From Bacteroidetes bacterium MED-G20 (lineage in GTDB: Bacteria; Bacteroidota; Bacteroidia; Flavobacteriales_D; Parvicellaceae), in NCBI GenBank assembly GCA_002457645.1, contig NTKH01000004.1, positions 1 to 44,664 of the forward strand: DNA of 44,664 bases, written 5' to 3'. The position numbers and the translations under genes are program-made. The notes under the pieces are model-generated. The model was not told where the DNA came from and did not search any database. It saw nothing but the letters and a program-made list of their open reading frames with translations. Below are positions 33,391 through 36,827 of the stretch, piece after piece. Position 1 is the stretch's first letter, and every line of letters starts with the position of its first letter.

Positions 33391-34412
33391 AATATTTCTT
33401 GTTGACCAGGATTGTTTTTAGATTTATTAAGGTGATTATACGCCATTTCTGTAACCATTCTTCCCCTTGAAGTTCTCACCATATAACCCTGTTGTACTAA
33501 AAAAGGTTCGTATACTTCCTCAATAGTACCAGACTCTTCACCAACTACTGTAGCTAAGGTATTTATCCCAACAGGGCCCCCCATATATTTATCTATAATT
33601 GCTGTTAAAATTTTATTATCCATCTCATCTAAGCCATGTTTATCAACTTGTAAAGCTGTTAATGCCATTTGAGTAATTTCGTTTGTTATGACCCCATCCC
33701 CTTTTACTTGAGCATAATCTCTTACTCTTCTTAAAAGAGCATTAGCAATTCTTGGAGTTCCTCTACTTCTTCCAGAAATTTCATTTGCAGCCTTGTCTTT
33801 TAAAGGAATTTTTAAAATACCTGCTGATCTGTTGATTATGGATTTTAAGGTTATTTGATCGTAGTAATGTAATCTACAATTAATACCAAATCTTGCTCTT
33901 AGTGGAGCTGTAAGTAAACCACTTCTAGTGGTAGCTCCTATTAGTGTAAATGGGTTTAAATCAATTTGAACTGTTCTTGCATTTGGGCCAGTATCTAGTA
34001 CAATATCAATCTTATAATCTTCCATAGCAGAATATAAATATTCTTCAATTACTGGACTTAATCGATGAATTTCATCAATAAAAAGAACATCTCCTGTTTC
34101 TAAATTAGTAAGTAATCCTGCTAAATCTCCAGGCTTATCAAGCACAGGCCCTGATGAGATTTTAATCCCAACTTCCATTTCATTGGAAATAATTTGTGCC
34201 AATGTTGTTTTTCCAAGTCCGGGGGGGCCATGAAGTAGTACATGATCTAGGCTTTCTTCTCTCATTTTAGCAGCAGAGACAAAAATTCTTAGATTTTCTA
34301 CTACTTGCGGCTGTCCAGCGAAATCTTCTAATTGCTTAGGTCGTAAAGCAATCTCGTATGTTTTATCAGTCTGACCCTGATCTTCTGATCTGAAATCATA
34401 TTCCTCAATCAT
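33387..34412 (-). CDS. ruvB: Holliday junction ATP-dependent helicase RuvB
   Basis: 341 residues, AAA+ motor that drives branch migration with RuvA. It starts with the typical [19 protein letters not shown]; Walker A is GPPGLGKTT, Walker [10 protein letters not shown], the sensor [18 protein letters not shown], and the winged-helix C-terminal domain contains [16 protein letters not shown] and RTSRGR. ATG at 34412. The first 8 bases overlap the end of the upstream exported-protein gene. It is separated from ruvA, which lies in the maeB-sprA operon. Confidence 0.97.
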
Positions 34413-35019
34413 AACTCAAATATAATGATGTATTTGCACGATGATGAAAGTGATTATAAATTTCTGTAAACTTTAAGGAAAATCTTAAAATTAGGGTTGG
34501 CAGAGTCAAGTTTTGATAAAAAATAGATTTATCATTTCTTGTAAATCTAATGCCCGAACCAAAACCTAAATTAAAAAAGTTAAATCCATTATGATTTATA
34601 ATGATAGCTGGCTCAAAAAATGAATAAGCTCCTTTATCAATACTGTCATCTATATTGACTGACTTTATTCTTCCTATTCCAAAGTCTAATGTAGCTTCAG
34701 CTGAAATAATTTCTGAGATTATCCAATTATAAGAACCAAAAAAATTGGATGAATTAATTCTTAGCAAAGTTGAGTCTTGAAAATAAAAATTTTTATCTCT
34801 TAAGGAACAATATCCAAACCCAATTTTGAACTTTTCGTTTAATTTATAAAATGGTTTTATTTCTTGAATTTTAAAACGATGGCCATCAATAAAAAAGTTT
34901 TTAATTTCTAATCGTAATCCCATCTCATTAAGTAAGACAGGGGGATCAATTATTTTACTTTCTTGAGAGATGAAAATATTATTTAATAGAATAGCAATTA
35001 CAAAATAAAAAGTCCGCAT
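34405..35019 (-). CDS. exported protein, probable small outer-membrane beta-barrel, unknown family
   Basis: 204 residues. The start has a signal peptide ([18 protein letters not shown], cleavage near residue 18-20). The rest alternates polar and aromatic residues in short strands: [51 protein letters not shown], as in eight- to ten-strand barrels, but no family is recognised. It lies between ctaD (47 bases away) and ruvB (8-base overlap). The start codon sits in the loop of a terminator-like hairpin formed by bases just before and after it, so its expression may depend on readthrough or unfolding. No other in-frame ATG would keep the signal peptide. Confidence 0.75.
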
Positions 35020-35039
35020 ACAGTGAAGTTACGGACTTT
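35009..35039 (-). terminator. terminator-like hairpin after ctaD, enclosing the next start codon
   Basis: On the minus strand AAAGTCCG (35039-35032) pairs perfectly with CGGACTTT (35016-35009) around a 15-base loop, followed by TTATTTTG, giving a U-rich tail. The stem is 8 bp with 4 G-C pairs in this AT-rich DNA. It starts 28 bases after the ctaD stop. The ATG of the next gene (35019-35017) is the last three bases of the loop, and the 3' arm is codons 2-4. Confidence 0.6.
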
Positions 35040-35066
35040 AGTAAAAATATTAATTAAAAGTAAATA

Positions 35067-36827
35067 TTAATGCTCTTCTTCATTGTCGTCTAATGGAACG
35101 TTTTGAGGCACAAAATCTTTTTCTTTTCCTGGTTTGCTGTAATCATATGGCCACCTGTGAACTATGGGTATTTCACCTATCCAATTACCATGGACATGTT
35201 CTACAGGTGTAGTCCACTCTAATGAATTGGAATTCCATGGATTTTGAGAAGATCTAGGGCCTCTAAAAATACTATAGAAAAAATTGAAAAAGAAAATAAC
35301 TTGAGCAATTACACCTACGCTGGCAAAAATAGAGATCAAAATATTAAGATCTAAGAAATGATCAAACATAGGAAAATTTGTGTTTTCATAATATCTTCTA
35401 GGTAGACCTCCTTCACCAAGAAAATGCATTGGAAGAAAAACACCATAACCACATATAATTGTTATCCAAAAATGAACCATTCCCATTCTCTTATTCATCG
35501 CCTTACCATACATTTTAGGGAACCAATGATATATTCCTGCAAACATTCCTAAAATGGCTGTCATCCCCATCACAATATGGAAATGTCCCACCACAAAATA
35601 AGTATCATGCTGAGAAATATCTAAGGCAGAATCTGCTAGAATTATTCCAGTTACACCACCAGAAATAAAAGTAGAAACAGAACCTATACAAAATAGCATG
35701 GCAGGTGTCATAACTACATTACCTTTCCAAATAGTAGTAATATAATTGAACGCCTTAACAGCTGAGGGTATAGCAATTAGTAATGTTGTAAAGGTGAAAA
35801 CACCTCCTAAAAAAGGATTCATTCCTGTTAAAAACATATGATGCCCCCAAACAATAAAAGAAAGAAATCCGATAGCTAACATTGAGCCTATCATGGCTCG
35901 ATAACCAAAAATTGGTTTTCTAGCACATGTAGAAATAATTTCTGAAGTCATACCCAATGCAGGCAATAAAATGATGTATACTTCAGGATGACCTAAAAAC
36001 CAGAATAAATGTTCATATAAAATTGGACTTCCCCCTGTTGCGTCTAATGCCCCAGATGATGTGACAATATCACTCATATAAAAACTGGTTCCAAAACTTC
36101 TGTCCATTAAAAGTAGAACTGCTGCTGATAATAAAACCGGGAAGGAAAGAACACCAAGAATAGCAGTAATAAAGAATGCCCAAATTGTCAATGGAAGCCT
36201 TGTCATTGTCATTCCTTTAGTTCTAAGATTCAAAATGGTAACGATATAGTTAATTCCCCCAATTAGTGAGGATGCAATAAAGACTGTCATTGATAATAGC
36301 CACAGTGTCATTCCAAGACCAGATCCTGGTTGAAACTCAGCTAAAACACTTAATGGAGGATAAACAGTCCAACCAGCCATAGCAGGTCCAGTTTCTATAA
36401 AAAGAGAGGCTGCCATCAGTAGACTTGAAAGAAAGAATAACCAATATGCCACCATGTTTAAAAGACCCGAGGCCATATCTCTAGCTCCTACTTGAAGAGG
36501 GATTAATAAGTTAGAAAAGGTTCCTGAAAGACCCCCCGTTAAAACAAAGAAAACCATAATAGTTCCATGAAGTGTAACTAGACCCAAATACCAGTTACTG
36601 TCTAAAAGACCATCTGGAGCTGCGTCTGATCCAAGTATCGCTTCTAAAAGTGGGAACTTTTCATCAGGCCAACCTAACTTCATCCTAAACAATGCGGATA
36701 AGGTTATTCCAATAGCTCCCATAAAGATTGCAGTTAACAAATACTGTTTTGCAATCATTTTATGATCTTGGCTAAAAATATACTTTGTTATAAAACTTTC
36801 TTTGTGATGATGTGTGTCGTGCGCCAT
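35067..36827 (-). CDS. ctaD: cytochrome c oxidase subunit I (aa3 type)
   Basis: 586 residues, the catalytic heme-copper subunit with about twelve membrane helices. Visible ligands: LHGTIMVFF (low-spin heme His), WFLGHPEVYIILLP (CuB His with the cross-linked Tyr), VWGHHMFLTG (CuB His pair) and HDTYFVVGHFHIVMG (heme His). A His-rich cytoplasmic start (AHDTHHHKE) is present. ATG at 36827, 29 bases after ctaC. Oxygen reduction here pairs with the act genes upstream, which should deliver electrons from quinol. Subunit III is not seen in the window. A hairpin after the gene probably ends most transcripts. Confidence 0.97.
   Translation of the reverse strand: MAHDTHHHKESFITKYIFSQDHKMIAKQYLLTAIFMGAIGITLSALFRMKLGWPDEKFPLLEAILGSDAAPDGLLDSNWYLGLVTLHGTIMVFFVLTGGLSGTFSNLLIPLQVGARDMASGLLNMVAYWLFFLSSLLMAASLFIETGPAMAGWTVYPPLSVLAEFQPGSGLGMTLWLLSMTVFIASSLIGGINYIVTILNLRTKGMTMTRLPLTIWAFFITAILGVLSFPVLLSAAVLLLMDRSFGTSFYMSDIVTSSGALDATGGSPILYEHLFWFLGHPEVYIILLPALGMTSEIISTCARKPIFGYRAMIGSMLAIGFLSFIVWGHHMFLTGMNPFLGGVFTFTTLLIAIPSAVKAFNYITTIWKGNVVMTPAMLFCIGSVSTFISGGVTGIILADSALDISQHDTYFVVGHFHIVMGMTAILGMFAGIYHWFPKMYGKAMNKRMGMVHFWITIICGYGVFLPMHFLGEGGLPRRYYENTNFPMFDHFLDLNILISIFASVGVIAQVIFFFNFFYSIFRGPRSSQNPWNSNSLEWTTPVEHVHGNWIGEIPIVHRWPYDYSKPGKEKDFVPQNVPLDDNEEEH

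Follow-up and report, generated by a model that had tools for sequence, protein, structure and literature searches.

A predicted intrinsic terminator after ctaD encloses the start of the next gene, and possibly its promoter, in a Bacteroidetes genome

The window, the whole 44,664-nucleotide stretch of Bacteroidetes bacterium MED-G20 that was analysed (contig NTKH01000004.1), carries on its minus strand the genes ctaD, orf and ruvB, in that order of reading, with a hairpin at the ctaD/orf junction. The features referred to below are:

35067-36827, minus strand: ctaD, cytochrome c oxidase subunit I, the last gene before the hairpin (Pfam COX1, E 2.1e-135)
35042-35049, minus strand: rival promoter-like box in the spacer, TATTTTTA, with 5/6 matches, outscoring the loop box in the window
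35030-35039, minus strand: 5' arm of the hairpin (from sequence, fold and covariation), AAAGTCCGTA, the final two bases of which pair as U.G and A-U
35024-35031, minus strand: sigma-A-like -7 box in the loop, TAACTTCA in the window and in L002 (4/6), ending 4 nt before the start codon
35017-35019, minus strand: ATG start of orf, the U and G of which are paired in the read-through hairpin
35009-35018, minus strand: 3' arm of the hairpin, TGCGGACTTT, which also encodes the end of Met1, Arg2, Thr3 and most of Phe4
35002-35011, minus strand: T-tract of the terminator, TTTTTATTTT, which also encodes the Phe-rich start of the presumed export signal
34405-35019, minus strand: orf, a presumed exported protein of 204 aa, lying between ctaD and ruvB in relatives
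34417-34424, minus strand: promoter-like box of ruvB, TATATTTG, at exactly -12 from the ruvB ATG and within the last orf codons
33387-34412, minus strand: ruvB, Holliday junction helicase

The ctaD product also matches the NCBIfam model CtaD_CoxA (E 1.4e-172), under the curated cut-off of that model. A tblastn search recovered all three genes from 25 of the 30 loci that the orf search had yielded, the window's included; in other families of the order orf often went undetected, and many loci there consist of ctaD, terminator and ruvB. The named relative of orf, in the Crocinitomicaceae MAG ARS86 (L151, the same locus as L002), is 85% identical. Searches of the window's orf protein against Pfam and NCBIfam gave nothing above cut-off, while among 15 aligned relatives two match DUF3575 (best E 1.6e-4) and one matches OMP_b-brl (0.017); a profile search gave no match to solved structures up to E 1, and structure prediction from two rows reached a mean pLDDT of 26.9. 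In one relative (L008 of G010) orf has a one-base frame shift downstream of the start, which reflects either an assembly error or a broken gene.

On the minus strand the junction reads AAAGTCCG-TAACTTCACTGTATG-CGGACTTT-TTATTTTG, the last piece being a T-rich run. The perfect stem comprises 8 bp (35039-35032 with 35016-35009) and encloses a loop of 15 nt with the ATG (35019-35017) at its end, so that the 3' arm corresponds to orf codons 2-4 (CGG ACT TTT) minus the last base. RNAfold extends the stem by an A-U and a U.G pair and by two further pairs on the inside, which leaves the U and G of the AUG paired. The predicted energy of the hairpin alone is -13.2 kcal/mol (z -6.0), a value equalled by 0 of 200 shuffles, and with its flanks the z-score is -3.05, again equalled by 0 of 200. 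The first-pass annotation had placed a hairpin here, and its existence at this position, far beyond chance, is borne out. The start codon it overlaps is the only one that orf can use here, since an in-frame TAA lies 12 nt upstream and leaves no other ATG, GTG or TTG available.

The hairpin begins 27 nt after the ctaD stop codon, and its stable stem is followed by the T-tract CGGACTTTTTATTTT, as in an intrinsic terminator. Sites outside genes that combine a hairpin with a T-tract are scarce, with just 10 in a 400-kb sample of the same genome from which the window was excluded. The built-in terminator scan was limited to loops of up to 8 nt, and the ctaD hairpin with its 15-nt loop is absent from its list. 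Rfam gave no hit above gathering score for positions 34000-36000 of the window, the six hits there having E values from 0.88 to 3.9.

Relatives retain the hairpin. In the first set of loci, as judged from folds, it directly follows ctaD in 28 of 29 (the exception being L010), and a contiguous stem of at least 9 bp is present at 38 of 40 further ctaD junctions; the two with short stems are L063 (6 bp) and L068 (5 bp as picked by the script, with a longer imperfect hairpin visible). One locus lacking the ctaD end (L029) was excluded from the junction analyses, and since the genomes share kinship, locus counts here and below are not independent. An alignment of 32 of the 37 listed hairpins (30 distinct rows; L023, L025, L026, L027 and L055 omitted) has 91% of its cells paired and 15 cells altered on both sides, neither value being reached by any of 500 shuffles. 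Two of its rows (L011 and L012) seem to be out of register in the alignment, which lowers the pairing. Controls with slid partners gave pairing of at most 50%. The alignment contained no more further pair types than shuffles do (209 of 500 reach the value). The position after the gene, GC-containing stem, T-tract and compensatory changes are all shared with Rho-independent terminators, and together they make it well supported that the hairpin and T-tract, which are found throughout the family and in neighbouring families, terminate the ctaD transcript intrinsically, in agreement with the first-pass annotation as to termination. That annotation had also looked to compensatory changes in relatives as a check on its proposal of a terminator that is also a lid on the start codon; such changes are present, but they favour the terminator, not the lid. 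What sets the element apart from usual intrinsic terminators is that its 3' arm and T-tract double as the opening codons of orf and that the loop, in relatives, contains a promoter-like box.

In L010 (G001) a break in the ctaD frame near residue 535 accompanies the loss of the hairpin that normally follows the gene; sequencing errors in this assembly are a possible cause. The G006 assembly contains the ctaD-orf junction twice, on C32 (L003) and C16 (L034), with bases right after ctaD that look alike, and the orf copy on C16 is split into two matches, one of them with stops.

The position of the orf start relative to the hairpin varies among relatives. The arm contains the sole start before the body of the protein in the window's genus (g1; L001-L009), in g2 (L019, L021-L023) and in two of the three g3 genomes (L017, L018), where L008 was scored with this class despite its one-base frame shift after the start. 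In g4, g7, g8 and g9 no stop interrupts the orf frame across the hairpin, and it reaches back to a start that overlaps the last part of ctaD; the loci with such an open frame are L011-L014, L016, L020, L024, L028 and L030. Among the eight of these that were checked, no in-frame start lies inside the hairpin of L011, L013, L020 or L024. The hairpin of L014 offers only a TTG, in its loop, and in L016, L028 and L030 a GTG or ATG within the arm is available as an alternative start. In L015, f10, f11 and g6 the ATG lies just beyond the T-tract (assigned partly by eye). The hairpin and the gene start thus travel together, whereas the hiding of a sole start codon does not, being confined to g1, g2 and two of the three g3 genomes.

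These distributions bear on the proposal, made in the first-pass annotation, that the hairpin is a lid on the start codon, which lowers expression from read-through messages. In the form considered here, orf is translated mainly from ctaD read-through RNA, and the hairpin holds the AUG and keeps that translation low. The geometry itself holds for any read-through RNA of the window's species, in which the start-codon U and G are predicted to be unpaired with probabilities of only 0.057 and 0.002, and bases 2 and 3 of the start codon are mostly paired in the read-through RNA of 15 of 16 loci with the start in the arm, the exception being L010, where the hairpin is lost. Structure close to the start is, moreover, reported to tune translation in Flavobacterium johnsoniae (PMC6847099). 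Against a lid, the arm is the sole start in just three genera, and elsewhere the start can or must be upstream, or follows the hairpin; a strong terminator would be expected to leave scant read-through RNA; and, in arm-start loci, the loop box described below is placed such that orf mRNA beginning from it would never contain the 5' arm. A regulatory lid is therefore unlikely as the role of the element, and we consider it improbable that read-through messages governed in this way account for orf expression.

A hairpin that, when read through, both terminates and hides an AUG resembles attenuators and other start-codon-sequestering hairpins, although no anti-terminator fold, ligand or leader peptide was identified, in a non-systematic search. 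The open-frame loci would in principle allow a translation-controlled attenuator, in which ribosomes starting orf within the end of ctaD cross the 5' arm and prevent the hairpin from forming, such that transcription continues. The frame that this model needs is open from the ctaD end through the hairpin in all nine open-frame loci, but nothing in those genera shows regulation, and we regard the model as very improbable. For the window, L002-L007 and L009, translation-dependent antitermination is excluded by an in-frame stop between the ctaD stop and the orf start; in L001 this is a TAA at position 35 after the ctaD stop.

The loop itself contains a candidate promoter. In F. psychrophilum the sigma-A box is reported to be TAnnTTTG, at -12 to -5 from the transcription start (PMC9723704). 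The window's loop box matches this word at only 4/6 positions, compared with 5/6 in eight of ten loci of the window's genus, where seven other members have TA[AG]CTTTA and L010 has TAAATTTA, and with 6/6 in all six arm-start loci of g2 and g3, where the box reads TACnTTTG. Perfect boxes within the terminator loop occur in g2, g3 and L047. When all 16 arm-start loci are scored at -12 from the start codon the mean match is 5.25/6, the next-best of 78 offsets giving 3.94 and the average 2.35; six of these loci are perfect and 14 have at least 5/6 matches. In L010 the 5/6 box is retained at -12 of a TTG start.

The best box overlapping the loop is perfect in six and 5/6 in seven of the 16 arm-start loci, and perfect in two and 5/6 in three of eight loci with the start just after the hairpin (none in L031-L033, g6), whereas there are 0 perfect and four 5/6 boxes in nine open-frame loci, 0 and one in five other orf-bearing f6 and f9 loci, and 0 and one in 30 loci with no orf detected; the class labels were set by hand, the second copy in G006 (L034) was left out, and the last class may hide distant orfs. 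Within L031-L070, orf was found by tblastn (E 1e-3, one query) in L032, L034, L046, L051 and L055 only, and was assigned by eye in L031, L033, L045, L047 and L048.

The TAnnTTTG word is enriched upstream of genes in the family, with 61 occurrences in G012, where 8.4 are expected, and 43 in G001, where 12.5 are expected. In G012 the positions -13 (nine), -12 (eight) and -30 (nine of 109 sites) are among the commonest. In the samples from the window's genus -12 accounts for 4 of 76 sites and is exceeded by -26, with six. A TTG-N20-box arrangement was seen by eye in g2 (L019, L021-L023), but no consistent -33 TTTG/TTG element was found by eye in the window's genus; in F. johnsoniae a -33 motif was likewise reported as not identifiable (PMC7366714). 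A scan with the E. coli sigma-70 consensus, which is uninformative for Bacteroidota, gave 41 sites against 50.8 in shuffles. The loop box thus resembles Bacteroidota sigma-A promoters in its word, in the enrichment of that word upstream of genes and in its expected distance to the presumed start (as described in PMC9723704 and PMC7366714), and departs from them in lying within a terminator loop, in the two mismatches of the window's copy and in the lack of a clear -33 element in the genus.

A plainer account would be that an ordinary terminator has been crowded into the next start by genome compaction, that orf is expressed by low read-through or from a spacer promoter, and that the loop box is due to chance or is inherited from the stem GTCCGTA. 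The weakness of the window's loop box speaks for this account, as does the higher score of the spacer box TATTTTTA (35049-35042); with a crude promoter matrix, which with flanks holds little information beyond the -7 box and cannot settle the window's promoter, spacer boxes rank above the loop box in the window, and the loop box ranks first in five of the ten window-genus loci. TTT also arises easily in T-rich loops, and nesting of this kind is rare elsewhere in the genome samples (see below). Several observations are harder to reconcile with it: the offset of -12 stands out among the 78 tried, perfect loop boxes are missing both from the 30 loci with no orf detected and from the nine open-frame loci, among which g7 keeps the stem GTCCGTA yet has no perfect loop box, and L010 retains its 5/6 box despite having lost the hairpin. 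We regard compaction alone as doubtful, albeit with a real chance of being correct.

The reading we prefer, with a probability of roughly 0.6, is that the start of orf, with a promoter in the loop, is nested within a conserved intrinsic terminator of ctaD. RNA polymerase coming from ctaD would halt at the T-tract, and a second polymerase would start at the loop promoter and produce a leaderless orf mRNA, the first base of which would be the first base of the start codon. Because the 5' arm is absent from such an RNA, it would form neither the terminator nor the lid. In the window, the three start-codon bases of the leaderless RNA are predicted to be unpaired with probabilities of 0.997, 0.874 and 0.543; in several relatives, e.g. 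L019, L022 and L023, the start codon in the leaderless fold is still mostly paired with downstream sequence. A promoter nested in the loop fits the comparative data better than a lid, most firmly in the sister genera and less firmly in the window's species, where the weak loop box implies that orf is probably expressed at a low level, or else from a spacer promoter or by read-through.

On this reading ruvB would be transcribed separately, from a leaderless-type promoter of its own that lies in the last codons of orf. The sequence TATATTT[GA]-N4-ATG occurs at exactly -12 of ruvB in the window's genus and several others, and this supports the suggestion of the first-pass annotation that ruvB may have its own promoter. 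Among 54 ruvB rows, which include both L151, identical in locus to L002, and L034, a further copy from the L003 genome, 20 have at least five matches at -12, and a box anywhere in -60 to -8 is perfect in 36 and 5/6 in 15 more, with neither in three; positions were counted from the first residue that aligns with the window's protein, and in some rows this is not where RuvB truly begins. The orf frame of L011-L014 stops sooner and the ruvB box is still present, so the box is not kept merely by the protein code. A perfect box also precedes ruvB in 14 of 19 rows that have ruvB but no orf, and this suggests that a terminator followed by a promoter is an old layout of the ctaD/ruvB boundary.

The spacing of box, N4 and start codon, at orf in relatives and at ruvB, is that expected of leaderless mRNAs. 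Among the mRNAs examined in F. psychrophilum, 5.5% are reported to be leaderless (PMC9723704), and 5' UTRs of less than 10 nt account for about 3.7% in Bacteroides thetaiotaomicron (PMC7366714). What would set orf apart from usual leaderless mRNAs is that its first codon doubles as a terminator arm.

The general kind of arrangement, an overlap of terminator and promoter, is already known from Salmonella, where inter-operon overlaps are described at tufB-secE, secE-rpoBC and S10-spc-alpha, within an ancient gene cluster, and where the tufB-secE overlap is reported to regulate expression and to matter for fitness (PMC7055797). The ctaD/orf element would be similar in that the terminator of one operon overlaps the next promoter at a conserved gene boundary, and is different in phylum, in the genes involved and in the sigma-factor word. 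Its box, moreover, lies within the loop of the terminator and the start codon of orf within an arm, a difference judged against an outline description of the Salmonella layouts. A literature search turned up no terminator that combines a promoter box in its loop with the following start codon in one of its arms; the system reported in PMC12502629 is described as involving an antiterminator and cleavage by RNase III rather than a promoter.

A bolder proposal, which we offer tentatively and hold to be possible though clearly short of even odds, is that the hairpin is a punctuation element of ~30 bp in which the loop acts as promoter and the arm provides the first codons of a leaderless gene that is blind to its own terminator, with heavy ctaD transcription blocking the loop promoter such that orf expression would run inverse to that of the oxidase. 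If the nested arrangement is true, one short sequence would be under three constraints, namely stem pairing, promoter box and protein code, and a gene start seemingly hidden by structure would be exposed, its own mRNA beginning inside the hairpin. It would also extend terminator-promoter overlaps to an oxidase/next-gene boundary, to another phylum and to a more compact form. Such sites can escape tools, as illustrated by the terminator scan that overlooked the ctaD hairpin, and relatives that start orf before, inside or after the hairpin provide a natural comparison of how transcript boundaries are packed in compact genomes.

We do not claim a widespread class of nested hairpins. In the genome samples, terminators outside genes have the word TAnnTTT[GA] in the loop in 1 of 10, 0 of 24 and 2 of 92 cases, the last count being for G012, where loop boxes are no commoner than several control words. 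The full nested layout was found nowhere else in 400 kb each of G000 and G001, and once in 800 kb of G012. In that case (L085:12044-12073) the terminator follows a stop codon at a distance of 20 nt, its loop carries TACATTTG, and an ATG comes 3 nt past the hairpin; the two flanking genes are what we take to be a peptidase-like gene and a large gene that is membrane-protein-like. A G000 hairpin (L118) has TACCTTTA in its loop, but adjoins neither a gene stop nor a gene start. Further hairpin-plus-T-tract sites overlap a predicted ATG at L093:17600-17626, on the minus strand of L092 and at L124:8845-8868.
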